From an uncultured Oscillochloris sp. (GTDB lineage: Bacteria; Chloroflexota; Chloroflexia; Chloroflexales; Chloroflexaceae), in NCBI GenBank assembly GCA_903916565.1, contig CAIWXH010000732.1:1-35254 (forward strand): a stretch of DNA of 35,254 bases, given 5' to 3'. The notes under the pieces were generated by a model. That model searched no databases and had not been told where the DNA came from. It worked only from the letters and a program-made list of their open reading frames with translations. Shown piece after piece: positions 2,966-21,021 of the stretch (its first letter is position 1; the number at the start of each line of letters is the position of its first letter). Both the position numbers and the translations under genes were made by a program.

Positions 2966-4441
2966 ATGAACACAGCGAACTACCTGCTCGAAACCGGCGC
3001 AGACCACCGTCTTGCGCTCATCGACGGTGAGCAGAGCTACACCTACGGCGAGCTACGTGCAGCGGTCGTGGCGCTTACGCATGCGTTAGTTGCTAACGGG
3101 GTGCAGCCGCAAGCGCATGTTGCCATCTTTGGCCCAAACACGTATTTCTGGATCGCTGCCTATCTTGCGATCCTCAAGCTTGGTGCCGTTGCCGTGCCCT
3201 TTTCGCCTGCGGCCAAGCCAGCCCAACTCGCCGAGATGCAGAAGCTGGTGGCGTGCCAAGTGGTCTGTGCCCCGGCGGCGCAGCTCACCCCGGCGCATCG
3301 CACGGTTTTTGGCGACTGCGTGGTGATCACCGAGGCGGCGCTGACGGCTGATCTATCGGCGGGGCCAGTTGGGCCAAGCAGCGCCGAGGTTGCGCCCACC
3401 CAGCTTGCTGCGCTGATGCTCACCTCGGGCACCACCGCCCGTCCGCGTGCGGTCTGCGTGACGCATCGCAATATCCAGGCCAACACCAACTCGATTATTG
3501 CTGCGCTTGAGATCGGGCTGGATGATCGGATGCTGGTCGTGCTGCCCTTTCACTACTGCTTTGGCACCTCGCTGCTCCATACACATCTGCGCGCAGGTGC
3601 CACCCTGGTTTTGGCCAATAACGCCGCCTTGCCTGAGGTGCTGCTCAACGAACTGGAAGCCCATAGCTGCACCAGCTTTGCGGGTGTGCCGTCGGTCTAC
3701 CAGTTGCTCTTGCGGAACTCGACCTTTCCCCGGCGCAGCCTGCCCGCGCTTCGCACCTTTCAGCAGGCCGGGGGCAAACTTCAGCCAGTGTTGATCGAAG
3801 AGCTGACCGCGCTGCGGCCCACGGCGCGGATCTTCATTATGTATGGGCAGACCGAGGCGACCGCCCGGCTCTCGTACCTGCCGCTTGAGCAGATGCAGGC
3901 CAAGCGGGGGTCGATTGGCCGGGGCTTGCCGGGCGTTAAGCTGCGTGTGGTCAATGAGGCGGGCCAGGAGGTTCGTCCCGGCGAGGTCGGCCAGATTATC
4001 GCTTACGGCGAGAATGTGACCGCTGGCTACCTCAACGACCCCGAGTCGACGGCGCGCACGTTTGTTGGCGGGGCGCTGCATACCGGCGATCTCGCCACCG
4101 TCGATGCCGATGGCTACATCTACATTGTTGATCGGCAAAGCGACTTTATTAAGCCGCTGGGCCACCGCGTCAGCAGCCACGAGATCGAGGCGTGCGTGCT
4201 GGCGCTGCCCGATGTGCTGGCCGCCGCCGCCATCGGCGTGCCCGACCCGCTGCTTGGCGAGGCGATTAGGGTGTACGTGACGCTGCGGCCAGGGGCGGTG
4301 CTGGACGAGCAGGCGATGCTTGCCCACTACAAGCGCACGCTGCCGCGCTATATGACCCCTAAGCAAATCGTCATTCTGGCGCAACTGCCAATGAATAGTC
4401 AGGGCAAGGTGCTGAAGACGGCCCTGCGCCAGTTGGTCTAG
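2966..4441 (+). CDS. AMP-forming acyl/aminoacyl ligase (class I adenylate-forming enzyme)
   Basis: A 491-residue member of the ANL superfamily, which activates a carboxylic acid as acyl-AMP and passes it to CoA or to a carrier-protein thiol. Core motifs are present in order: A3 TSGTTARPRA (about residues 152-161; the usual Gly-x-Pro-Lys is Ala-Arg-Pro-Arg), A5 MYGQTE (about 292), A7 HTGDL (about 371), A8 DRQSDFIKPLGHRV (about 389) and A10 NSQGKVLK with the likely catalytic Lys481. I chose ATG 2966 because AAAGGG lies 4 nt upstream; an in-frame ATG at 2948 has no better site. A discrete acyl carrier protein and a holo-ACP synthase lie downstream on the same strand, so loading of that ACP is the likely job, as DltA does for DltC or as the ligases of exosortase-linked polysaccharide clusters may do. 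The substrate cannot be told from the sequence. Confidence 0.85.
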   Translation: MNTANYLLETGADHRLALIDGEQSYTYGELRAAVVALTHALVANGVQPQAHVAIFGPNTYFWIAAYLAILKLGAVAVPFSPAAKPAQLAEMQKLVACQVVCAPAAQLTPAHRTVFGDCVVITEAALTADLSAGPVGPSSAEVAPTQLAALMLTSGTTARPRAVCVTHRNIQANTNSIIAALEIGLDDRMLVVLPFHYCFGTSLLHTHLRAGATLVLANNAALPEVLLNELEAHSCTSFAGVPSVYQLLLRNSTFPRRSLPALRTFQQAGGKLQPVLIEELTALRPTARIFIMYGQTEATARLSYLPLEQMQAKRGSIGRGLPGVKLRVVNEAGQEVRPGEVGQIIAYGENVTAGYLNDPESTARTFVGGALHTGDLATVDADGYIYIVDRQSDFIKPLGHRVSSHEIEACVLALPDVLAAAAIGVPDPLLGEAIRVYVTLRPGAVLDEQAMLAHYKRTLPRYMTPKQIVILAQLPMNSQGKVLKTALRQLV

Positions 4442-4621
4442 CGTACGCTGCAAACCAGACCGTCTTCTACGGCGAATCACGCACGGTAAGCGCGATCTCG
4501 CGCCAAGCCGCCAAGCCGCCAACTAGCCGTGTGCGTGGGGTACGCCGAATGGTCAAGCGGAAATCGTTGCTTCTGAACCTGGCCTAGCCTGCGTTATTAC
4601 GCTGATACAAAAGGACTTCTG

Positions 4622-6631
4622 ATGTGTGGCATCGCGGGCACCTTAAACCTGACCCAACCGTTTGGCACGCCGCTGCCGAATCTCCAGGCGATGCTTGCGA
4701 TGCTCACCCATCGCGGGCCAGAGGAGGCCGGTTTCTACGTTGATGGCGCGGTCGGCTTGGCCCACGCTCGCCTCAGCATCGTCGGACTCAGCAACGGTCT
4801 CCAGCCGATCCCGAACGAAGATGGCAGCATCTGGGCGATTTGCAACGGGGAGTTTTTCAACTACGTTGAGCTGCGCGAGGCGCTGCGGGCCAGAGGGCAC
4901 GTTTTCAAGACGGCGTCGGACACCGAGGTGCTGGTGCATCTCTACGAGGAGCAGGGCTGGGCGGCGACCCGTGAGCTGAATGGGCAGTTCGCGTTTGCCC
5001 TCTGGGACAGCACGCGGGGCCGCCTGCTGCTGGGGCGCGACCGCCTTGGGGTGCGCCCGCTCTTCTACACGGTCTGCAACGGCCAGTTGCTGTTTGCCTC
5101 AGAGTTGAAGGCGCTGCTGGCGGGCGGCATTCCGCGCCAGCTTGACCGGCGGGCGCTGGCCCAGGTTTTTACCACGTGGTCACCGCTGCCGGGCCGCACG
5201 ATTCTTGAAGGGGTCAGCGAGGTCTTACCCGGTCACATTCTCTTCGCCACGACCGGCTCGCCCAAGCTGACCAGCGAGCAGTACTGGCGGCTGAGTTTCC
5301 CCGCGCTGGGCGAGCTTGAGCAGCGCAGCACTGAGGAGTATGTCGCGGAGATTCGCACAACCCTGACGGACGCCACGCGCATTCGCCTGCGGGCCGATGT
5401 GCCGGTCGGTGCCTATCTCAGTGGCGGATTGGACTCGACCCTGATTTCGAGCCTCGCCCAGGCGCAGTTGCCGCATCAGCTTCACACCTTCTCGGTGGCC
5501 TTTCACGACCCGGCCTTTGACGAGCGCGCCTACCAATATCAGGTCGCCAAAACGCTCGGCACGCTGCACCATGTTATTGAGTGCGACGCCGACTCCATTC
5601 GCGCCACCCTGCCCGCTGTCCTCTGGCACACCGAGGTGCCGCTGCTGCGGCTCACCCCGGTGCCGATGTACCTGCTCTCGCAGCTTGTGCATGCACATGG
5701 CCTGAAGGTGATGCTTTCGGGCGAAGGGGCCGACGAGTTTTTCGGCGGCTACGACATTTTCAAAGAGACGCTGGTGCGCCGCTTCTGGGCGCGCAACCCT
5801 GGCTCGCGGCTTAGGCCGCTGCTGCTGCGGCGCTTGTACAGTCACATCAGCGACCTGCAAAACATCTCGCCCGCGCTGCTCCAGCGCTTTTTCGGCCAAG
5901 GGCTTACCGAGACGGATCGGCCCGACTACAGCCACATGCTGCGCTGGCAGAATACCAGCCGAGCCAGACGCCTCTTTGCGCCCGACGTGACGCAGGCGCT
6001 GGCCGATTATCAGGTCATGGACGAGCTTGCGGCCAATCTGCCCGCCGAGCTGATGAACTGGGAGCCGCTGGCGCGGGCACAGTACCTGGAGATTACGACG
6101 TTTCTTTCGACCTATTTGCTTGGCTCGCAGGGCGACCGGGTGGGCATGGCGCATGCGGTCGAGTGTCGCCACCCCTTCCTCGACCATCGCGTCGTCAGCC
6201 TAAGCAACCGTATCCCGGCGCGGCTGAAGGTGCGCGGGCTGCGCGGCGAAAAGTACGTGCTGCGCCAAGCCGCGCAGGGTCTTGTGCCAAACGAGATTAT
6301 TGCGCGGGAGAAGCAGCCCTACCGAGCGCCAATCCGCAGCGTCTTCAGTGGCCGCCCGCTGCCCGACTATGCCCAGGAACTGCTGAGCGAGCGGCAGCTC
6401 CGCGCCACGGGCATCTTCGCCCCCGAAGCCGTCAGGCTGCTGCTGACGAAGGTGCAAAACTCGCCCGCGCTGAGTGAAGTTGACCAGATGGCCTTCATCG
6501 GCGTGCTGAGTACGCAGATGATCAACAGCTACTTTATCGAAGACTGGAACGCGCACGCGGCGGCCCGTCGTCGTGCGCTACCCATGACCGATGTGGGCGC
6601 GCAAGTGGTGGGCGGTGAGGGAAACCTGTAG
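4622..6631 (+). CDS. asnB: Glutamine-hydrolysing asparagine synthase family amidotransferase
   Basis: A 669-residue protein with the two-domain AsnB layout. MCGIAG at the N-terminus leaves Cys2 as the class II glutaminase nucleophile after Met removal. The glutaminase domain covers roughly residues 1-210, followed by an ATP-pyrophosphatase synthetase domain with the PP-loop SGGLDST at about residues 267-273. SGEGADEFFGGY and the late HPFLDHRVV segment are further typical family blocks. The start is fixed by Cys2 and by AAGGA at 4611-4615. The reaction transfers glutamine nitrogen to an adenylated carboxylate. The length is at the upper end for the family, as in the amidotransferases of polysaccharide and natural-product clusters, and the neighbours (ligase, ACP, NAD-synthase-like protein) argue for a dedicated amidation step rather than housekeeping asparagine synthesis. 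True asparagine synthase cannot be excluded. Confidence 0.88.
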   Translation: MCGIAGTLNLTQPFGTPLPNLQAMLAMLTHRGPEEAGFYVDGAVGLAHARLSIVGLSNGLQPIPNEDGSIWAICNGEFFNYVELREALRARGHVFKTASDTEVLVHLYEEQGWAATRELNGQFAFALWDSTRGRLLLGRDRLGVRPLFYTVCNGQLLFASELKALLAGGIPRQLDRRALAQVFTTWSPLPGRTILEGVSEVLPGHILFATTGSPKLTSEQYWRLSFPALGELEQRSTEEYVAEIRTTLTDATRIRLRADVPVGAYLSGGLDSTLISSLAQAQLPHQLHTFSVAFHDPAFDERAYQYQVAKTLGTLHHVIECDADSIRATLPAVLWHTEVPLLRLTPVPMYLLSQLVHAHGLKVMLSGEGADEFFGGYDIFKETLVRRFWARNPGSRLRPLLLRRLYSHISDLQNISPALLQRFFGQGLTETDRPDYSHMLRWQNTSRARRLFAPDVTQALADYQVMDELAANLPAELMNWEPLARAQYLEITTFLSTYLLGSQGDRVGMAHAVECRHPFLDHRVVSLSNRIPARLKVRGLRGEKYVLRQAAQGLVPNEIIAREKQPYRAPIRSVFSGRPLPDYAQELLSERQLRATGIFAPEAVRLLLTKVQNSPALSEVDQMAFIGVLSTQMINSYFIEDWNAHAAARRRALPMTDVGAQVVGGEGNL

Positions 6632-6650
6632 TGGTTCACCACTTGCCGCT

Positions 6651-6760
6651 GCCCCTCTCCCCCGGCCCCTCTCCCACACGGGGAGAGGGAGGATTCCGCA
6701 GCAGGAAGTGTTCGACTCCCCCTCTCCCGTTCTGGGAGAGGGGGCTGGGGGGTGAGGGGC
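6651..6760. repeat. 110-bp C-tract/G-tract palindromic repeat, copy 1
   Basis: Intergenic element built from CCCCTCTCCC blocks and their complements (GGGAGAGGGG), with a core ATTCCGCAGCAG. A second copy of the same length lies at 31594-31703 in the same orientation. The ends read GCCCCTC and GAGGGGC and the element folds into two hairpins. It lies between asnB and the NAD-synthase-like gene. Confidence 0.8.
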
Positions 6761-6813
6761 ATAAGACGGTAACGTAAAAGCAGCCTAGTTTTGTTACGAC
6801 AAGGAGGAAGCCA

Positions 6814-7782
6814 GTGCCGTTCGGAACTCATGTCCTTACCATTGATCCAGAGCTTGAGACCGCGCACATCGTCACCGTGCTGCGCCAGACAATTCAGCAG
6901 GACTTTCGCCGCAAGGGGGCCATCGTCGGGCTGAGTGGCGGCATCGACTCGGCGGTCGTTTTGGGGCTGGCGGTCAAAACTTTTGGCCCCGAGCGCGTGC
7001 TGGCGGTCATGATGCCCGAAAAAGCCTCTAGCCCGGTGAGTGAGCAGTACGCCAAGCAGCTTGCGGACAAGTATGGCGTGACCGCGATTACGGAGGATCT
7101 TACCGCTGGGCTGGCGGGGCTGAATTGTTACGAGCGCCAGGACGAGGCCGTGCGCTCGGTCTTCCCGGATTACGACCCTAGCCTGGACGCGATTAAGCTG
7201 GTGCTACCGACGGATCTGCTGGAGCGTGGGAGCCTGAATGTCTACTCGCTCAGCCTGAGTCGGCCCGGTGGCGCAGAGCGGCGGCGGGTGCTGCCGGTGG
7301 CGGCCTACCTTCAGATTGTGGCGGCCTCGAATATGAAGCAGCGCTCGCGCATGCTGATGGTCTACTATCACGCCGAGCAGCGCAACTACGCCGTGATTGG
7401 CACGGCCAACCGCAACGAGCACGCCCAGGGCTTTTTTGTCAAGTATGGCGACGGTGGGGCCGATATTCAGCCGATCCAGCATCTGTACAAGACCCAGGTG
7501 TATCAGTTGGCGCACTATCTGGGGGTCACCCAAGAGATTATTGACCGCACGCCGACCACCGACACCTACAGCGCCGAGCAGACTCAGGAGGAGTTCTACT
7601 ATCGGCTGCCGTTCGATCTGATGGATCTGATCTGGTACGGTCTCGACCACGAAGTCCCGGCGGCTGAGGTCGCGGTGGCCTTACAGCTCAGCACGCAGCA
7701 GGTCGAGAACGTCTACCGCGATCTGGCGCAGAAGAGCCGCTCGACCGCGTATCTGCGGGCCAAGCCGCTGATGGTGCGCTAA
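6814..7782 (+). CDS. NAD(+) synthase-like ATP pyrophosphatase
   Basis: A 322-residue N-type ATP-pyrophosphatase related to ammonia-dependent NadE. The PP-loop SGGIDSA starts at residue 41. GTANRNE and KYGDGGADIQPI match the NadE blocks after the helix that binds adenylate, and PTTDTYSAEQTQEEFYY replaces the usual NadE sequence ending in QTDE. The protein is longer than typical NH3-dependent NadE (about 270 residues) and has no glutaminase domain of its own. GTG 6814 is chosen because a strong AAGGAGG lies at 6801-6807 with 6-nt spacing. NadE proper adenylates deamido-NAD and amidates it. Here the gene sits among an AsnB-type amidotransferase, a ligase and an ACP, and I infer it adenylates or amidates the pathway intermediate rather than making NAD. 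That inference rests on context and on the divergent C-terminal motifs only. Confidence 0.75.
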   Translation: MPFGTHVLTIDPELETAHIVTVLRQTIQQDFRRKGAIVGLSGGIDSAVVLGLAVKTFGPERVLAVMMPEKASSPVSEQYAKQLADKYGVTAITEDLTAGLAGLNCYERQDEAVRSVFPDYDPSLDAIKLVLPTDLLERGSLNVYSLSLSRPGGAERRRVLPVAAYLQIVAASNMKQRSRMLMVYYHAEQRNYAVIGTANRNEHAQGFFVKYGDGGADIQPIQHLYKTQVYQLAHYLGVTQEIIDRTPTTDTYSAEQTQEEFYYRLPFDLMDLIWYGLDHEVPAAEVAVALQLSTQQVENVYRDLAQKSRSTAYLRAKPLMVR

Positions 7783-7784
7783 GA

Positions 7785-7864
7785 CCAGGTTTCAGGTGCC
7801 TGGTTTCAGGTTTCAGGCCGAGCGCTTTGCGTACACCTAGACTGTAAAGCATCCACAAGCCTTG
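7785..7864 (+). repeat. CAGGTTTCAGG stop-codon-associated element, copy 1 (80 bp)
   Basis: Begins 2 nt after the TAA of the NAD-synthase-like gene, with GGTTTCAGGTTTCAGGCCGA inside and AGCCTTG at the far end. It is related to the 90-bp copies at 16198 and 28079 but is 10 bp shorter and has a less perfect terminal repeat. Confidence 0.7.
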
Positions 7865-7892
7865 TCTAAGGGCTTGACTATTGTGACGGAGG

Positions 7893-7939
7893 GGGAGGGT
7901 GTTTAGTGGGAGGGCTTGGCCCTCCCTAAACACCCTCCC
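7893..7939 (+). terminator. Long near-perfect hairpin before the ACP gene
   Basis: GGGAGGGTGTTTAG at 7893-7906 and its complement at 7926-7939 extend through a second GGGAGGGC/GCCCTCCC pair to a TTG loop. This gives about 21 paired bases with one 2-nt bulge. No U-tract follows, so it may be a processing site, attenuator or mobile-repeat remnant rather than a classical terminator. It separates the first three cluster genes from the ACP/AcpS pair. Confidence 0.5.
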
Positions 7940-7988
7940 AGATGGGCCTTCTGTTTGCGCCAAGTATCTAATGCGAGAGGAGCCTGGA

Positions 7989-8249
7989 GTGGAGATCAAG
8001 GAACGCATCCGCGAGTTCATCGTTAGCAACTGCCTGTTCGGCGATACAAGCTTTGATTTGCGCGACGATACTGCATTGCTCGACTCAGGAATTATCGACT
8101 CGACGGGGGTAATCGAGTTGGTATTGTTCCTCTCCGAGGCGTTTGGCTTGGACGTGCCGCCGGAGGACATGCTCCCGGCGAATTTCAACTCACTTGGTCA
8201 ACTGACCAGCTATGTGCAGCAGCGGATTCCGGTGGCGTCTGCGCTGTGA
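7989..8249 (+). CDS. Acyl carrier protein (phosphopantetheine-binding)
   Basis: An 86-residue acidic helical protein. LLDSGIIDSTGVIELVLFL carries the attachment serine (Ser38 in IIDSTG), which AcpS-type enzymes modify with 4'-phosphopantetheine, and the surrounding D-S and following helix fit the PP-binding domain. GTG 7989 is chosen because AGAGGAG sits 6 nt upstream; ATG 7971 is in frame but overlaps that site, and longer versions run into the hairpin. The sequence is unlike fatty-acid AcpP (which has DSLDTVEL) and closer to stand-alone carrier proteins of D-alanylation or natural-product type. The stop overlaps the holo-ACP synthase start by 4 nt (GTGA), implying coupled translation. Likely partners are the AMP ligase at 2966 and AcpS at 8246. 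Confidence 0.85.
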   Translation: MEIKERIREFIVSNCLFGDTSFDLRDDTALLDSGIIDSTGVIELVLFLSEAFGLDVPPEDMLPANFNSLGQLTSYVQQRIPVASAL

Positions 8250-8638
8250 TTTATGGGATTGGGGTCGATCTGACGGACATTGAGCGCGTTCGCAAGCTGT
8301 TGGCTGGACGGCGCGAGCGCGCCCTTCAGATCATCTTTCGTCCGACCGAGCTTGAGCAGGTACGGGCGGTTGCGCCACTGCGCGAGGCCAGCTACGTCGC
8401 GGGGCGACTGGCGGCGAAAGAGGCCGTGCTGAAAGCGCTGGGGACGGGCATCGGGCCGCTGGCATTCCACGAGATTGCGATTACGCGCACCGACGCAGGT
8501 CAGCCGGGCGTCCAGATGTATGGCCGCGCAGCCCATCTAGCCGAGGAGCTTGGCATTCGTCGCTGGCACCTCTCGATCAGTCACGAGCGCGGCATGGCGA
8601 TTGCGTTTGCGGTCGCCGAACAAGACTTGGCCGCGTGA
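8246..8638 (+). CDS. acpS: Holo-[acyl-carrier-protein] synthase
   Basis: A 130-residue AcpS-family 4'-phosphopantetheinyl transferase that moves phosphopantetheine from CoA to the carrier-protein serine using Mg2+. Visible motifs are GIGVDLTDIERVR with the metal-binding Asp8, RLAAKEAVLKALGTG with Glu59, and the C-terminal HLSISHERGMAIAFAVAE. Length is normal for trimeric AcpS (about 120-130). The GTG start lies inside the last codons of the ACP gene (GTGA overlap), so the pair is probably translated together. It could be the cell's only AcpS or a pathway-specific copy; tight coupling to this ACP favours a dedicated role but does not prove it. Confidence 0.9.
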   Translation: MIYGIGVDLTDIERVRKLLAGRRERALQIIFRPTELEQVRAVAPLREASYVAGRLAAKEAVLKALGTGIGPLAFHEIAITRTDAGQPGVQMYGRAAHLAEELGIRRWHLSISHERGMAIAFAVAEQDLAA

Positions 8639-8777
8639 GGGCGCTTATCGCAATCATCTGGGAGTTATGCCGCACATAGCGCTGGTCGTCGGGGCGCAGC
8701 ATGCTGCGCCCGTACGGTTTGGCTCGTGGATGATGGATGACTAGGATAGGATTGCTAGAGCTGAAAGGTATGAACCC

Positions 8778-9581
8778 ATGCGCCTCTTTACTGGCTTGGC
8801 GCTTGTTGTGCTGGTGAGTCTTGGGAGCGTCGGCTGTACGCGGCAGCAACCGTTAGCTGAAGAGGTGTCTCCAGTGGAATTGAACAGCTTGGCCCAAAAG
8901 AGCATCTTTTTCGGTCACCAGTCGGTGGGGTGGAATATCATTCAGGGCATTGAGGAGACGCTCAAAGCGCAGCCGACGGTGACGCTGACCATTAGACAGG
9001 CTGAGCGCATTGACGCGACGCAGGGGCCGGCGTTCGTCCATGCGGAAATCGGCCAGAATTACGACCCGCTATCGAAGCTCCAAGCCTTCGAGCGCCTCGT
9101 GCGGGCTGGGATTGGCGACCGGGCGCAGATCGCGTTTTTCAAATTCTGCTACGTCGATTTCGACAAAAACACGGATGTTGATCAGCTTTTTACAGCCTAT
9201 CAGCAGACCATGGCCGATCTGAGTCAGGCGTACCCGCAGACGACCTTTGTCTACGTTACGGCACCGCTGATGGCACCGGAACAGGGGGCCAAAGCGCTGC
9301 TCAAGCGCCTGCTTGGGCGCAACGACGAGGCGCTGGCCAATCTGAAGCGGCATCAGTTCAACGAGCGCTTGCGGCGCGCGTACGCGGGCAACGCGGCGCT
9401 CTTTGATCTGGCCGCGCTCGAAGCAACCTACCCCGACGGCACGCTCTGCACGGTCACGGTGGCGAATCAGACGGTTCCGTGTCTGATCGTCGAGTATACG
9501 GACGACGGTGGGCATCTGAACGGGCTGGGACGCCAAGTGGTTGCGGCACAACTCCTGAAGTTTCTGGCCAAGCTGGATTAA
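8778..9581 (+). CDS. SGNH-hydrolase-like lipoprotein
   Basis: A 267-residue protein with an N-terminal export signal (residues 1-19, LVVLVSLGSVGC) and Cys20 as the likely lipidated residue, although Ser rather than Leu occupies the -3 position. After the linker, FFGHQSVGWN (residues 44-53) resembles SGNH block I with Ser49 as candidate nucleophile and His-Gln replacing the usual Asp. YTDDGGHLNGLG near the C-terminus gives Asp243-x-x-His246, matching block V. TTFVYVTAPLM in the middle has the shape of the strand before the block III Asn, but no clear Asn is seen. I infer a surface esterase or deacylase acting on an acyl group of the cluster product, or a non-catalytic SGNH fold. RBS AAAGG lies at 8764-8768. 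Confidence 0.55.
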   Translation: MRLFTGLALVVLVSLGSVGCTRQQPLAEEVSPVELNSLAQKSIFFGHQSVGWNIIQGIEETLKAQPTVTLTIRQAERIDATQGPAFVHAEIGQNYDPLSKLQAFERLVRAGIGDRAQIAFFKFCYVDFDKNTDVDQLFTAYQQTMADLSQAYPQTTFVYVTAPLMAPEQGAKALLKRLLGRNDEALANLKRHQFNERLRRAYAGNAALFDLAALEATYPDGTLCTVTVANQTVPCLIVEYTDDGGHLNGLGRQVVAAQLLKFLAKLD

Positions 9582-9664
9582 GGTTTCAGGTGCTAGGGTT
9601 CAGGTTTCAGGTGCTAGGTTGCAGGTTTCAGGTGCTAGGTTGCAGGTTTCAGGCCGAACGCAGC
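9580..9664 (+). repeat. Stop-codon-associated element with 21-bp tandem units, copy 2
   Basis: Overlaps the TAA stop (TAAGGTTTCAGG). The 21-bp unit that starts CAGGTTTCAGGTGC is repeated perfectly at 9601 and 9622, followed by CAGGTTTCAGGCCGAACGC. The CCTTG 3' end is absent. The copies suggest slippage expansion of the element's internal half-repeat. Confidence 0.75.
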
Positions 9665-9683
9665 AGCATAAGGATTATCAGCC

Positions 9684-10325
9684 ATGGATTGCACACGCAG
9701 CGTCGTACATGAAGATGGTGCGACGTATCGTCGCAGCAGGCACACGATCCTCCAGCGGCTGCGCGCCTATCTCAGGGGCCAGCGCTCGCAGGTGCATGGC
9801 AAGACCCTGCTGGCCTACGCGCTCTGTGCGCCCTTGCCGAAATATGTAGGGGCCGAGATCCGGGCCGCGATTCTCCGCCGTATCGGGTTCACGATTGGGG
9901 CCAATTCAGGCTTCTTTGGCACTCCGACGCTTTTTGGCACCGGTGACTACTATAAGCGCCTGGTGATTGGCAGCGACTGCTGGATCAATCTTGGCTGTTA
10001 CCTGGAGCTAAACGCGCTCGTCCAGCTTGGGGATCACGTCAATATTGGCCCGGATGTGATGATTCTGACCGGCTCGCACGAGATGGGCACGGAGGGGTGC
10101 CGTGCGGGCCGGTTTACGACGCTGCCGGTGACGATTGATAGCGGGGCCTGGATCGGTGCGCGCTGTGTTATTCTGCCAGGGGTGACGATTGGCAAAGGCG
10201 CGGTGATCGCTGCCGGGACGACGGTTCACCGTGACGTGCCGCCAAACATCATAATGATCGGCACGCAGGGCATGCCCATTGACAAGTGGATGGCGCTGAC
10301 CAAAGCGGGCGCTGCTACCCGGTGA
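9684..10325 (+). CDS. Left-handed beta-helix (hexapeptide) acyltransferase
   Basis: A 213-residue protein with a helical N-terminus (about 1-60) and then isoleucine/valine-rich hexapeptide turns typical of the maltose/NodL/CysE-like O-acetyltransferase group ([33 protein letters not shown], then V-x-x-DVPPN). The motif GSHEMG supplies the usual catalytic His. Such enzymes transfer acetyl or another short acyl group from CoA to a sugar or similar acceptor in the cytoplasm. ATG 9684 has AAGGA 10 nt upstream. It is the last gene of the same-strand series beginning at 2966 and could supply an O-acyl decoration that the SGNH-like lipoprotein later acts upon; that pairing is inference. Confidence 0.82.
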
Positions 10326-16934: not shown

Positions 16935-19040
16935 TCACGCGAAATTATTTTCGCCCCAGACAGAGACGCGATTGCGCCCCATGCATTTGGCGCTGTAAAG
17001 CGCCTGATCAGCGCGCCAGATCAACTCTTCGACCGTCGTCAGCGTTGGCTCGGCGATGGCGACCCCCAGACTAATCGTGACTTGGATCGGCCCGCTCGTC
17101 GTCGTGAACACTGTGCTCGCGACCGTCTGGCGGAGCCGCTCGGCAATCTGGCGCACCTGGATCGGACTGATCGCCGGGCTGATCATCACAAACTCTTCCC
17201 CGCCATAGCGGGCGACGATGTCCGAGGTCCGCACCTGTTTCAAACAGGTGGCGACGTGCGTCAGCACTTGGTCGCCTACCGCATGGCTGAAGGTGTCATT
17301 CACGCGCTTGAAGTGATCAATGTCGATGAAGATTGCCGCCAAGTCGCCCCCGTAGTGCTGACTCCCGTAGTGCTGAAGTCGGCGAAACTCGGCCTCGGCA
17401 AGCACGTTGAAGCGACGGCGGTTATACAAGCCCGTGAGGGGGTCGGTGTCGGCAAGCGTCTGAACGGCTTGGAGCAGGCGTACATTGTCTAGCGCAAGCG
17501 TCACTTCATGGGCCACCACTTGGGTGATGCTGGCGTGTTCCAGACTGTAGGCCCCAGCTTCAAGGCTGCCGATGGTCAGCACGCCAATCACCTGTTGGCC
17601 TTTGAGCAACGGCACGCCCATCCAACTTCGCAGCTCCGAGGAATTCGCTAGGTTCAGTGTACTCGTCTCGTTGAGTGCCTCAGCCCCCAGGATGAGCGGC
17701 GTCCGCCGCTGGATGACCAGCGCATACGGTTGCTGATCGGCGCGTATGAACTGGCCCACGCTGCTCGCTTGGCCCAGGCTACTCTGCACGGAAACCACCC
17801 GTAGGGTTTCGCCTTCAAGCAGCAGCAGAACCGATTCCTGACTGGGGATGAGGGCATCCAGATGCACCAGAACCTGCCGTGCCATGCGGTCAAAATCAAG
17901 CTCTGTCGCCAGATCGAGCATGGTTTGGCGCAGATACGCGGTCAGATCGCGCTCACGCCGGAGTGACTGCTCGACCTCCTGAAGAGCGGCGTAGGTGCGC
18001 GCATTGACGAGGGCCAGCCCGCACAAACTTGTGATTGCCAGCCCAAGATTGAGGTACTCGGTGCGGTGTTCGGGCAGGGCGATGTTGTACACCGCGACGA
18101 GGCCCAGCGGCTCATGGTGAGAGTGGATGCGGAGGTAGAAGCCGTTCTCGCGCTCCATCAGGGCGTAGTCACCAGGCATGGTCGCCAGGGCTTGTTCGAG
18201 CGCGGTGCGGGCTTCAGGCTTGCCCTGGAGCGAAAAGACCTGGCTAATCTGGCCGGCCTTGATCTGAGCATAGTCCAACTCGGTGCAGCCAAACAGCATG
18301 GCGAACAGATTCTGGATCGCGGTGATCGTCGCCTCTTCTGATTGAATCTGGGACATCTGCACCAGCAGATCAAAGGCCATTGCGTACTCGGCGATCTTCC
18401 GGTTCGCCGGCTGAAGCATCTGTTGCGTCTGGGCTTCGACGATGCTCAGGCGCCACTCAAGCACAATTTTCGCCAGAAAGAGCTTTAGGTAGTCGAGGCT
18501 GATCCGCCGCACTCGGTATGGGCGATCCACATAGGCGGCGAACTGCTCTAGCTCTGCCAGCGCATCGAGGTCGGTGCCCGTATCAAGCAGCAGCAGTTCG
18601 CGGGCACACTCATGGAAGAACTGGCGTGCGCTCGCGCGGTCGAAGCCCCAGCGTTGGAGTTGCTCGCGCCAGCGCTTCAGCCAACTTGGGGTGAGCAGAT
18701 ATGCGCCCGTGCGCGTTTCGCTCTCCCAGATCTCACGACCAGTCACCATCGCGAGGCAATGATCCAGCCGTACCCACTGGTGCGGCAGCATGGGCGCATG
18801 TTCCGCAGCGCTCGGGGGAAGTGAGCACGCACCGATGATCAGCACCTCGGTGCCATCGGGCGGGGGCGGCCTAAAAACCCCGTGGACGGGCTGGCGCTGG
18901 CGCTGCGGTTGGCTGCATGGCAGCGTGTAGCCCTCAACTTGAACCCAGGTGTAGCCCAGTTCGCGGATGGCGCGGGCGACACTCTCTTGGTAGAGGGCAC
19001 AGACCCGCAGGCAGAGCTTAGGCTTCACGGTCGATCCCAT
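16935..19040 (-). CDS. Diguanylate cyclase with N-terminal DUF1638-like domain and GAF domains
   Basis: A 701-residue protein. Residues about 8-215 resemble DUF1638, a family seen beside corrinoid methyltransferases; the strongest match is the block around RLDHCLAMVTGREIWESET and GAYLLTPSWLKRW. A GAF-like segment (about 215-400), a coiled coil and a second GAF (about 410-545) follow. The C-terminal GGDEF domain (about 550-698) begins ADTDPLTGLYNRRRF and has the catalytic GGEEF at 613-617. An I-site RxxD (RTSD) lies five residues before it, so it should make c-di-GMP with product inhibition. The ATG at 19040 and a GTG at 19028 (GTGA overlap with the upstream stop) are both possible; longer versions lie inside the upstream gene. 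It is the last of a three-gene minus-strand operon with the MtaA-like and B12-binding genes. Confidence 0.82.
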   Translation of the reverse strand: MGSTVKPKLCLRVCALYQESVARAIRELGYTWVQVEGYTLPCSQPQRQRQPVHGVFRPPPPDGTEVLIIGACSLPPSAAEHAPMLPHQWVRLDHCLAMVTGREIWESETRTGAYLLTPSWLKRWREQLQRWGFDRASARQFFHECARELLLLDTGTDLDALAELEQFAAYVDRPYRVRRISLDYLKLFLAKIVLEWRLSIVEAQTQQMLQPANRKIAEYAMAFDLLVQMSQIQSEEATITAIQNLFAMLFGCTELDYAQIKAGQISQVFSLQGKPEARTALEQALATMPGDYALMERENGFYLRIHSHHEPLGLVAVYNIALPEHRTEYLNLGLAITSLCGLALVNARTYAALQEVEQSLRRERDLTAYLRQTMLDLATELDFDRMARQVLVHLDALIPSQESVLLLLEGETLRVVSVQSSLGQASSVGQFIRADQQPYALVIQRRTPLILGAEALNETSTLNLANSSELRSWMGVPLLKGQQVIGVLTIGSLEAGAYSLEHASITQVVAHEVTLALDNVRLLQAVQTLADTDPLTGLYNRRRFNVLAEAEFRRLQHYGSQHYGGDLAAIFIDIDHFKRVNDTFSHAVGDQVLTHVATCLKQVRTSDIVARYGGEEFVMISPAISPIQVRQIAERLRQTVASTVFTTTSGPIQVTISLGVAIAEPTLTTVEELIWRADQALYSAKCMGRNRVSVWGENNFA

Positions 19041-20077
19041 TGGAGTGGGTAGGTGCCCCAGCGCTGGACCCCTTCGGCAATGGCTAAGAGGGTTTCCTCT
19101 GGGACTTGAAAGGGAATCTCGCCGTGGTTGTCGGCCAGAATGAAGCCGCCCCCAGGCCCGGCAGCCGCAAGAGCCGCCTTGACCGCCGCCTCGGCCTGGG
19201 CTGGAGACCACTGACACATCGCAATCCCGTTCAGGTTGCCGATCAGGCTGAGTTTGGCGGCGGCGGCCCGTTTCAGTGCGGCGAGATCTTCATCCACGCT
19301 GACCCCAAGCGCCACCGCGCCGGTGCGGGCGACATCGCCCACCAGCGGTAGGCAGCGCCCCGAGGCGAAGTGAAACGCGACCGGCCCGTTGATGCGGGCG
19401 AGGATGCGCGTCGTCATTGGGTGATCGAGGCGCAGAAATTGCTCACGGGGCACCATCGAGGTCGAGGCAAGCGGGTTAAAGTAGCAGATCGCGGTTGCGC
19501 CCGCTGCTAATTGCGCGTTCGCCCAAGCGACGCAAAACGCCTCGTTGAGCTGCATCAGCAGCGCGAAGAGTTCCGGCTGTTCGTACATCAGGATGAGATA
19601 CGCCTCGAAGCCCAACTGCATCACTGGCAGTGAGAACGGGGCCATGACCACCCCGATGATCGGCGTCTCGCCCTGGCTTCGTTCGCGTAGGCGGCTGATG
19701 GTATCGAGGCTGCGCCGCAGACAAGGGGTGTCGGCAATCGTGGGCGGCTGAAGCGTGCGGATCTGGGCAGGCTGGCGGATCAAGGGTTCGCCGGCATTGG
19801 GCGGCCCGTCGTCGCGAAAAATGACCTCGCCGCCCCATGCCTCGACCTCAAGGGCCGCGTAGAAGAATGGGTACAGACAGTCGTTGCGGTACTTGCGGGC
19901 CATGCGAAGCTGGCCTTCAACCACATGCTCGGCGCGGGCAAAGTAGTCCTTGATCGACAAACCCAGCTCTTTGGCCCCGTGCATCGTTAGCAGCAGGAAG
20001 AGCGGCACGCGATCCGGCTCCTGATGCCCAAGCGTAACCAGCACTCGTTGCAACGAGGTCATTGGTGTGGGCGTCAT
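19025..20077 (-). CDS. Uroporphyrinogen decarboxylase / MtaA-like methyltransferase family protein
   Basis: A 350-residue TIM-barrel protein of the URO-D/MtaA/CmuA group (TSLQRVLVTLGHQEPDRVPLF near the start, FILADNHGEIPFQVPEETLLAI near the end). MtaA-type members carry methyl groups between corrinoid proteins and thiols using a zinc held by His-x-Cys and a distal Cys. Here the first site reads FHFASGRC (His present, Cys replaced by Ala) and the distal site reads ADNHGEIP (Asn-His where a Gly-Cys is usual), so zinc ligation, if any, differs. It is not a haem-pathway HemE by context: the start overlaps the B12-binding gene (ATGA) and the end overlaps the DUF1638-GGDEF gene. I infer a role in methyl-corrinoid transfer or sensing. 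Confidence 0.75.
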   Translation of the reverse strand: MTPTPMTSLQRVLVTLGHQEPDRVPLFLLLTMHGAKELGLSIKDYFARAEHVVEGQLRMARKYRNDCLYPFFYAALEVEAWGGEVIFRDDGPPNAGEPLIRQPAQIRTLQPPTIADTPCLRRSLDTISRLRERSQGETPIIGVVMAPFSLPVMQLGFEAYLILMYEQPELFALLMQLNEAFCVAWANAQLAAGATAICYFNPLASTSMVPREQFLRLDHPMTTRILARINGPVAFHFASGRCLPLVGDVARTGAVALGVSVDEDLAALKRAAAAKLSLIGNLNGIAMCQWSPAQAEAAVKAALAAAGPGGGFILADNHGEIPFQVPEETLLAIAEGVQRWGTYPLQWDRP

Positions 20078-20727
20078 GGCAACTCCTTCAGCAGTCGGCT
20101 GACGTGGCCCACCGCCTCGATGGCCGTTTTGCCCATCGCGTCAGCGCCGACGATGTGCCAGAGTTGCTCGTCAAAGCGAAATGGTGCGCCCCCGACGATC
20201 AGCTTGGGGTGCTGGTTCGCCAGCGTGAGTTGCCTGCGAACCTCTTTGATTCGTAGCGCCGAGGGCAGCATCAGCACCGAGATCAGCAGCACCGCGATGC
20301 GTTCCGCACGCACCTTCGCAACCAGCGTCTCGACATCAACGCGGCCAAAGTCGTTGACCTCGTAGCCGGTGGCGCGCAGCGACGAGTAGACCATCCGCTT
20401 CCCGAGCAAATGATAGTCTTCAAGCACGGCAATCGCCATCGGTGGCTGGCTGATGCGCTGGAGCTTTGCGGGCGGCAACAGGGTGTCTACGATCTCCTCG
20501 CAGATGCGCCCGCTCATATAGACTTGGGCCAGGGACAACTCACCCTGCTCCCACTGGGCACCAATCTGTTCGAGCGCCGGTACAATCAGTTGCTCGATCA
20601 GCGCAATGGCGTCAGTTTGATCGACAGAGCGGCTGAAGATCTGGCGTACGGCAAGGCGATCAATCGCCAAAAGCGCCTCTAGGAACTCATCAAGCGGCTG
20701 CGCTTGGCTAGCGAGGGAGACGAGCAT
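20074..20727 (-). CDS. Cobalamin (corrinoid)-binding protein
   Basis: A 217-residue protein with the two-part layout of methyltransferase corrinoid proteins: a helical cap (about 1-90, FLEALLAIDRLAVRQIF, then a block near IEQLIVPALEQIGAQWEQGELSLAQVYMSGR), then a Rossmann B12-binding domain. AVLEDYHLLGKRMV contains the D-x-H-x-x-G signature, with His as the lower cobalt ligand, and LIVGGAPF with GADAMG completes the nucleotide-tail pocket. ATG 20727 gives the usual family length; an in-frame start at 20904 extends into a repeat and is rejected. It is the first gene of the operon, with a 4-nt ATGA overlap to the MtaA-like gene. It likely carries methylcobamide for that partner; no substrate-specific first methyltransferase is in the window. 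Confidence 0.85.
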   Translation of the reverse strand: MLVSLASQAQPLDEFLEALLAIDRLAVRQIFSRSVDQTDAIALIEQLIVPALEQIGAQWEQGELSLAQVYMSGRICEEIVDTLLPPAKLQRISQPPMAIAVLEDYHLLGKRMVYSSLRATGYEVNDFGRVDVETLVAKVRAERIAVLLISVLMLPSALRIKEVRRQLTLANQHPKLIVGGAPFRFDEQLWHIVGADAMGKTAIEAVGHVSRLLKELP

Positions 20728-20850
20728 AGAATTCAGCGCTTCTGTGTGCGACTCCGACTGAACGCACCGCCGAGGGTACGCTCTACGGATGTTGCGGAAC
20801 TTCACTGGGAGTGGGAAAGGGTCTGCCGCGCCGGTAGCTGATACGTAAAT

Positions 20851-21021
20851 ACCCATGGCGGTTGCAACGTCGCCCGCCAGCCCCTGCCCGGTGGTTGAAG
20901 CCACGGGCTATGCGGTGCGAAGGCCGCCTACGCGGCCTCAACCAGCCTGCGAAGGCAGGCTTCGCACCCAAGAGCCAGGGGCTTCAGCCCCCCGGCATGC
21001 GACGTTGCAACCGCCATGGGT
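20851..21021. mobile_element. 171-bp MITE-like element with 23-bp perfect inverted ends
   Basis: Positions 20851-20873 and 20999-21021 are exact reverse complements over 23 nt (ACCCATGGCGGTTGCAACGT... at the left). The interior contains GGTTGAAGCCACGG, GCGAAGGC.../...GCCTTCGC and GGGGCTTCAGCCCC hairpins. No ORF is credible. CATGGCGGTTGCAAC occurs again at 35099-35113 beside the IS end. Confidence 0.65.

Follow-up and report, generated by a model that had tools for sequence, protein, structure and literature searches.

Seven consecutive genes on the forward strand of the DNA analysed here (35,254 nt, hereafter the window; contig C732 of a 5.5-Mb genome that is 97% complete) include a four-gene core, made up of an AMP-forming ligase, an acyl carrier protein (ACP), an AsnB-type amidotransferase, and a NadE-like protein, which recurs as a conserved unit in many phyla. 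Our best explanation, to which we give a probability of roughly 45%, is that the seven genes encode an ACP-dependent pathway in which an acyl or aminoacyl group bearing an amide is assembled and then delivered to a molecule of the cell surface. The gene-cluster observation made in an earlier note on this DNA holds, and is stronger than was apparent to a sequence-only reader. The nearest relatives of the cluster are found in Oscillochloris genomes, and the host is a green filamentous, Oscillochloris-like bacterium.

All seven same-strand genes that had been claimed at 2966–10325 are present, with families assigned from profiles (for the sixth gene, from a structure model, fold search, and conserved residues). 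The AMP-forming acyl/aminoacyl ligase lies at 2966–4441 (PF00501, 250 bits, plus PF13193); an in-frame ATG occurs upstream at 2948, and the start used by relatives is the ATG at 2966 (‘MNTADYLL’). It is followed by the AsnB-type glutamine-hydrolysing amidotransferase (4622–6631; PF00733, 315 bits, plus GATase_7), a predicted NadE-family amide synthetase of subfamily PRK00876 (6814–7782; PF02540), and the ACP (7989–8249; PF00550, 24.4 bits), whose GTG start at 7989 was read from the sequence and whose end forms a GTGA overlap (8246–8249) with an AcpS-type phosphopantetheinyl transferase (8246–8638; PF01648, 61 bits; TIGR00516 above cut-off). An exported lipoprotein of SGNH fold (8778–9581) and a WcaF-like hexapeptide (left-handed beta-helix) acyltransferase (9684–10325; PF00132; PRK10502 at 82 bits, below cut-off) complete the set. 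The last of these had been described as an O-acyltransferase; it is indeed an acyltransferase, of the cytosolic hexapeptide type and not of the MBOAT kind.

The gap between asnB and the nadE-like gene holds a GC-rich inverted repeat (6640–6780) able to form a long hairpin of 141 nt, which folds far better than shuffled sequences (z-score −6.5). This hairpin is probably outside the pathway; it resembles a mobile or REP-type repeat and could break the operon. Apart from the ACP–AcpS overlap, the gaps within the gene set measure 100–206 bp and contain genome repeats, and an Rfam search returned no match. A 16-base repeat, GGTTTCAGGTGCTAGG, has 8 matches in the window against 0.01 expected, in gaps between genes (7788, 9582–9653, 22152, 28082, 28257, and 30100). 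Elsewhere in the window, the reverse strand (16935–20904) carries in a row a GGDEF/GAF protein with a DUF1638 match, a URO-D-family methyltransferase, and a B12-binding corrinoid protein, which from their families would form a corrinoid methyl-transfer set.

To read the neighbourhood of the core across genomes, we scanned genome contigs, found 249 relatives, and took the best 80 loci, a top-scoring selection in which bias is possible. The loci come from Chloroflexota, Bacteroidota/Ignavibacteriota, Calditrichota, Cyanobacteria, Acidobacteriota, Verrucomicrobiota, KSB1, Zixibacteria, and Aminicenantes, and 33 of the 82 non-redundant loci are well flanked, having 6 kb or more of sequence to either side. 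All four core genes lie within 6 kb in 27 of these 33, so that the ligase, ACP, AsnB, and NadE-like protein co-occur as a conserved unit; counted singly around the NadE-like gene, AsnB is found in 31, the ligase in 30, and the ACP in 30. Because the best-80 set could be biased, we also read six Chloroflexota loci from an even draw: the ACP and ligase are close by in all six, and AsnB is adjacent in five and near, on the opposite strand, in the sixth. Plasmid records added 116 further relatives, mainly on Sinorhizobium megaplasmids; the core is present on Sinorhizobium, Mesorhizobium, Shinella, and Azospirillum replicons, and asnB, ACP, ligase, and nadE are contiguous in annotated rhizobial replicon regions. 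The core gene order is repeated in other genera and phyla, beyond chance, and the independent occurrence of these genes in related genomes, which would have spoken against the cluster, is not what we see.

The expectation that the module would be found in many Chloroflexota was too strong. A PRK00876 protein above cut-off occurs in 8 of 158 Chloroflexia and 13 of 400 sampled Chloroflexota genomes, and we therefore regard the module as patchy in this phylum, though it spans many phyla; two other genomes of the window’s own genus lack the protein. (The family extends to archaea: Methanosarcina acetivorans has a PRK00876 protein above cut-off.) AcpS was rejected as a part of the core, since it adjoins the core at 1 of 82 loci, that of the window itself; two more phosphopantetheinyl transferase matches lie elsewhere in the window’s genome. 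The window holds a variant of this widespread operon type, itself patchy in distribution, that has an AcpS, an SGNH protein, and an acyltransferase of its own and a C-type ligase (ligase types are defined below).

A homologous set has almost certainly been worked on before. In Sinorhizobium meliloti, the pSymB gene SMb20650 is cotranscribed with that of the ACP SMb20651, and co-expression of SMb20650 with holo-SMb20651 in E. coli yields acylated SMb20651 (PMC7232532). SMb20650 bears the annotation of a long-chain acyl ligase and is unable to replace FadD (PMC7232532); the function of SMb20651 is said to need further work (PMC5686131). The operon with SMb20651 and SMb20650 is attributed to Ramos-Vega 2009 (through PMC7232532). 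On pSymB, the NadE-like locus has asnB, ACP, ligase, and NadE-like genes contiguous, the ligase following the ACP. A PF00550 scan of pSymB missed the ACP of this locus and found two other PP-binding ORFs, neither of which, by eye, has a ligase beside it. Given the ACP–ligase adjacency at the NadE-like locus and the lack of a ligase at the other two ORFs, the NadE-like locus is almost certainly the SMb20651/SMb20650 operon, although the record bears no gene names. As in the window, asnB, ACP, ligase, and nadE-like genes stand together on one strand; unlike the window, the S. meliloti operon has no adjacent AcpS, SGNH protein, or acyltransferase, and its ligase has a different pocket type. The 2009 work is said to describe an operon of asparagine synthetase, ACP, acyl ligase, and NAD synthetase, and to have found that the ACP carries fatty acyl groups when produced in E. 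coli. If so, the four-gene operon has already been described, and fatty acids are either a possible load of the ACP or an artefact of the E. coli host. In a probable homologue of the core, others have shown that the ligase acylates the ACP, and the earlier suggestion of a new pathway went too far, the ACP/ligase operon being published (PMC7232532). In our literature search on clusters of NadE-like, ACP, and AsnB genes, the SMb20651 papers were the only ones to touch on the module. As a side observation, an FkbH-like protein, an ACP-like ORF, and large ORFs resembling MBOAT and AlgJ proteins stand together, by eye, at 626–642 kb of pSymB (L148), possibly another carrier-based surface acylation set.

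The NadE-like protein has a GTG start and no glutaminase domain and matches PRK00876 at 447.9 bits (cut-off 313). Comparison of 82 family members with 18 canonical NadE proteins shows that the family keeps the ATP-pyrophosphatase core (SGG-DS, Thr197, Glu202, Lys210, Asp213, and Lys226), while sharing an insertion of ~45 residues (at ~115–163) that is absent from canonical NadE, and altered loops, with PTTDTY in place of PSxGLW. The structure model (pLDDT 92.7) renders the insertion as three beta-strands, and a fold search matches NH3-dependent NAD synthetases, 2e18 being the best. The protein thus has the fold and ATP-pyrophosphatase residues of the NAD synthetase family, and differs from it in the insertion, the changed loops, the genomic association, and the presence of a second copy in the genome.

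Automatic family names would make the AsnB and NadE-like proteins housekeeping enzymes of asparagine and NAD synthesis that merely lie beside unrelated genes, a reading to which we give almost no credence and which the second copies lead us to reject. Elsewhere in the window’s genome, PF02540 matches a frame on contig C289, whose 713 aa equal a canonical glutamine-dependent NadE in length, and, weakly, contig C235, and PF00733 finds a second AsnB on contig C777. The case that the earlier note had named as fatal to its proposal, in which the cluster would hold the cell’s only asparagine and NAD synthases, therefore does not apply. A separate canonical NAD synthase match is likewise present in 20 of 20 genomes that carry the NadE-like protein in other parts of the tree (split over pieces in one, G169). 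Since canonical NAD synthases exist separately in its own genome and in all 20 others, the NadE-like protein is probably not a housekeeping enzyme, and its tight conservation with the ligase and ACP also speaks against that role. The ‘NAD synthase’ annotation is probably wrong. The family can change substrate: in Francisella tularensis, one relative of NadE works as an NMN synthetase (PMC3376133).

The AsnB protein likewise has intact catalytic motifs: Cys2 is present (at least 95% conserved among 59 relatives), as is the SGGLDS loop. At four loci (L066, L082, L109, and L121, one of them on a short contig and one near a contig end), there is no AsnB, and the PRK00876 gene has a second, divergent paralogue at its side; by inference from these arrangements, the second amidation step may be fillable by either AsnB or a second PRK00876 paralogue.

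The ligase falls below cut-off for its best NCBIfam matches, PRK06187 and TIGR03098 (307 bits against 592 for the latter). By alignment to the usual adenylation-domain positions, we read a pocket code of ten positions, which is approximate. Thirty-three of 64 ligases have Asp at position 235 and the code DYYP[TS]TMKRK (D-type), and nearly all the rest have Cys, Ser, or Ile there and xxS(A/S)xAMARK, each type being nearly invariant across phyla. The window ligase reads CFSAQAMARK (C-type) and the S. meliloti ligase DYYPSTMKRK (D-type), a type spread across Chloroflexota, Cyanobacteria, and Acidobacteriota. On the NadE tree (a quick tree with many weak branches), ligase type switches at least 8 times, so the amide synthetases may not act on the ligase’s acid. 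Either both ligase types would activate one acid, or the amide synthetases would be independent of the ligase substrate. The ACP carries a DSTG phosphopantetheine site, and relatives keep the D-S motif.

One alternative we consider unlikely, yet worth real weight: that the amide synthetases act on the sugar acceptor, making uronamides from the carboxylates of uronic acids linked to nucleotides or lipids, and that the ligase and ACP separately supply an acyl or aminoacyl group that a FemAB-like or other transferase places on an amino sugar, in the manner of the Wbp/Vim pathway. NadE normally acts on a nucleotide-linked ring acid, which would suit such a role, as would the changes of ligase type while NadE stays the same. 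The second-best NCBIfam match of AsnB is TIGR03108 (436 bits), the family of WbpS and WbqG, which make uronamides (PMC7468200); the score is well under the cut-off of 817. A precedent is VimA, of the TIGR03019 FemAB family, for which addition of Ser/Gly to an amino sugar is proposed (PMC7468200). In Roseiflexus and Ignavibacteria the core has FemAB-like GNATs beside it, and in Azospirillum a GNAT. Neither in the window nor in S. meliloti does the core adjoin uronic-acid or FemAB genes. The linking-sugar pathway of type IX secretion (WbpS, VimA, VimE) shares with the core an AsnB-type amidotransferase and with its surroundings FemAB-like aminoacyl transfer to a surface sugar, but, in the PMC7468200 passages used here, involves no ligase, ACP, or NadE-like protein.

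The SGNH protein has no Pfam match and no match in a PDB sequence search, but its model (pLDDT 91) has an SGNH fold, with catalytic Ser49 and His246 (DGGH as DxxH) as in the SGNH hydrolase superfamily. Ser49, Asp210, and His246 are conserved; the motifs include FGHQSVG (block I), DGGHLN (block V), and a lipobox-like SVGC. Foldseek gives the peptidoglycan O-acetyltransferase PatB as best match (E 7.8e-8), alongside PAF-acetylhydrolase, sialate O-acetylesterase, and the periplasmic domain of a Salmonella LPS acetyltransferase. Of the 158 Chloroflexia, 6 have the SGNH protein; every one of the 4 genomes with Oscillochloris-type clusters does, and 4 of the 6 are among the 8 with the NadE-like protein (hypergeometric P 4e-5, overstated since the genomes are related). 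SGNH proteins of two related forms appear in 14 well-flanked loci.

The likeness to PatB might suggest cell-wall modification, with AsnB and the NadE-like protein amidating peptidoglycan carboxylates and the SGNH protein O-acetylating peptidoglycan. In one Oscillochloris genome (G032, locus L045, 14528–20000), the cluster indeed directly follows genes named by eye as murB-ddl-ftsQ-ftsA-ftsZ-like. We hold this to be very improbable: the mur/fts adjacency is confined to a single genome, the ligase and ACP are left unexplained, and, in contrast to PatA/PatB systems, the window’s genome has no PatA-like MBOAT to partner the SGNH protein.

Transferases around the core vary. An acyltransferase lies within 10 kb in 26 of the 33 well-flanked loci, and five kinds are represented: hexapeptide (12), Acyl_transf_3 (6), FemAB-like (5), MBOAT (3), and NRPS condensation (3). 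When 119 same-strand neighbours are sorted by family, NDP-sugar epimerases, FemAB/GNAT, glycosyltransferases, Acyl_transf_3, DUF362, sugar transferases, and polysaccharide deacetylases come out most often. Relatives of the core are thus often found among glycan genes with an acyltransferase, in keeping with the destination first proposed. A constant core adjoining varying transferases suggests that the core is a supply module for an activated group. A glutamine synthetase at one locus (L064) was rejected as a pathway part, since it scores above the housekeeping GlnA cut-off.

Some neighbourhoods fit a different product. Condensation–PCP–thioesterase proteins without an A domain adjoin the core in cyanobacteria and at one Acidobacteriota locus. 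In the cyanobacteria they might condense and release the product, which would be an unusual lipid or an amide metabolite, whether free or secreted; in S. meliloti, where the operon is self-contained and SMb20650 carries its long-chain acyl ligase annotation (PMC7232532), four genes would suffice. Rhizobial cores usually have no adjacent acyltransferase, and there is no polysaccharide locus around the genes in the window or in rhizobia. Glycan and acyltransferase genes are nevertheless the commoner neighbours, and a ligase that is no substitute for FadD (PMC7232532) sits poorly with a lipid product; we judge a metabolite or lipid decidedly unlikely.

Dlt and exosortase-linked modules had been named as known relatives of the cluster. 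Both are apt comparisons, but what defines them is missing here: neither an MBOAT (PF03062) nor an exosortase (PF09721) is matched anywhere in the window’s genome, and a full Dlt or exosortase system was rejected on this ground and on scores below cut-off. With DltABCD the core shares a ligase and carrier and, in some Bacteroidales, a DltB-like MBOAT beside it (187 bits against a cut-off of 375); it differs in the ACP’s low score against the DltC profile (28 bits, cut-off 68), in the lack of an MBOAT in the window’s genome, and in two additional amide synthetases. The XrtA/PEP-CTERM exopolysaccharide module (TIGR03098, TIGR03108, TIGR03019) supplies some of the closest curated families of the ligase, AsnB, and neighbouring FemAB proteins, but all scores are below cut-off, the genome has no exosortase, and the NadE-like protein is an addition; a PLP-dependent decarboxylase (TIGR03099) is absent from the annotated neighbours in the window. 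By the tests made, the module works like a carrier-based acyl-decoration route and is not a Dlt or exosortase system.

Returning to the preferred reading, an ACP-dependent supply of an amide-bearing group to the cell surface, in outline the model of the earlier note, we infer amidation on the carrier, the nature of the acid, its transfer, and a surface acceptor as follows. AcpS would convert the ACP to its holo form, and the ligase would adenylate an acid and load it on the ACP. AsnB, with ammonia from glutamine, and the NadE-like enzyme, with free or AsnB-derived ammonia, would each activate a carboxylate as acyl-AMP and convert it to an amide, the target most likely being the acid on the ACP or a precursor of that acid. 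Transfer of the group onto a sugar, or onto one linked to a lipid, would fall to the hexapeptide acyltransferase; outside the membrane, the exported SGNH lipoprotein may add, move, or trim an ester. Counting against this scheme, no glycan genes touch the window cluster, the genome offers the SGNH protein no MBOAT, the rhizobial operon usually lacks an acyltransferase next to it, and ligase type switches repeatedly on the NadE tree.

More broadly, though we hold this to be less likely than not, a NadE-type enzyme may have been recruited in bacteria of at least 8 phyla to amidate a carrier-linked or nucleotide-like acid, which would make the core a widespread, undescribed route to amide-bearing surface-glycan decorations in which AsnB and the acyltransferases are exchangeable. 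A four-gene unit with a carrier protein and two ATP-dependent amide-forming enzymes is present on well-studied rhizobial megaplasmids and in many phyla. Its NadE-like member, annotated as an NAD synthase, can mislead metabolic models, and the link to S. meliloti, a tractable organism, makes the function of the module testable.
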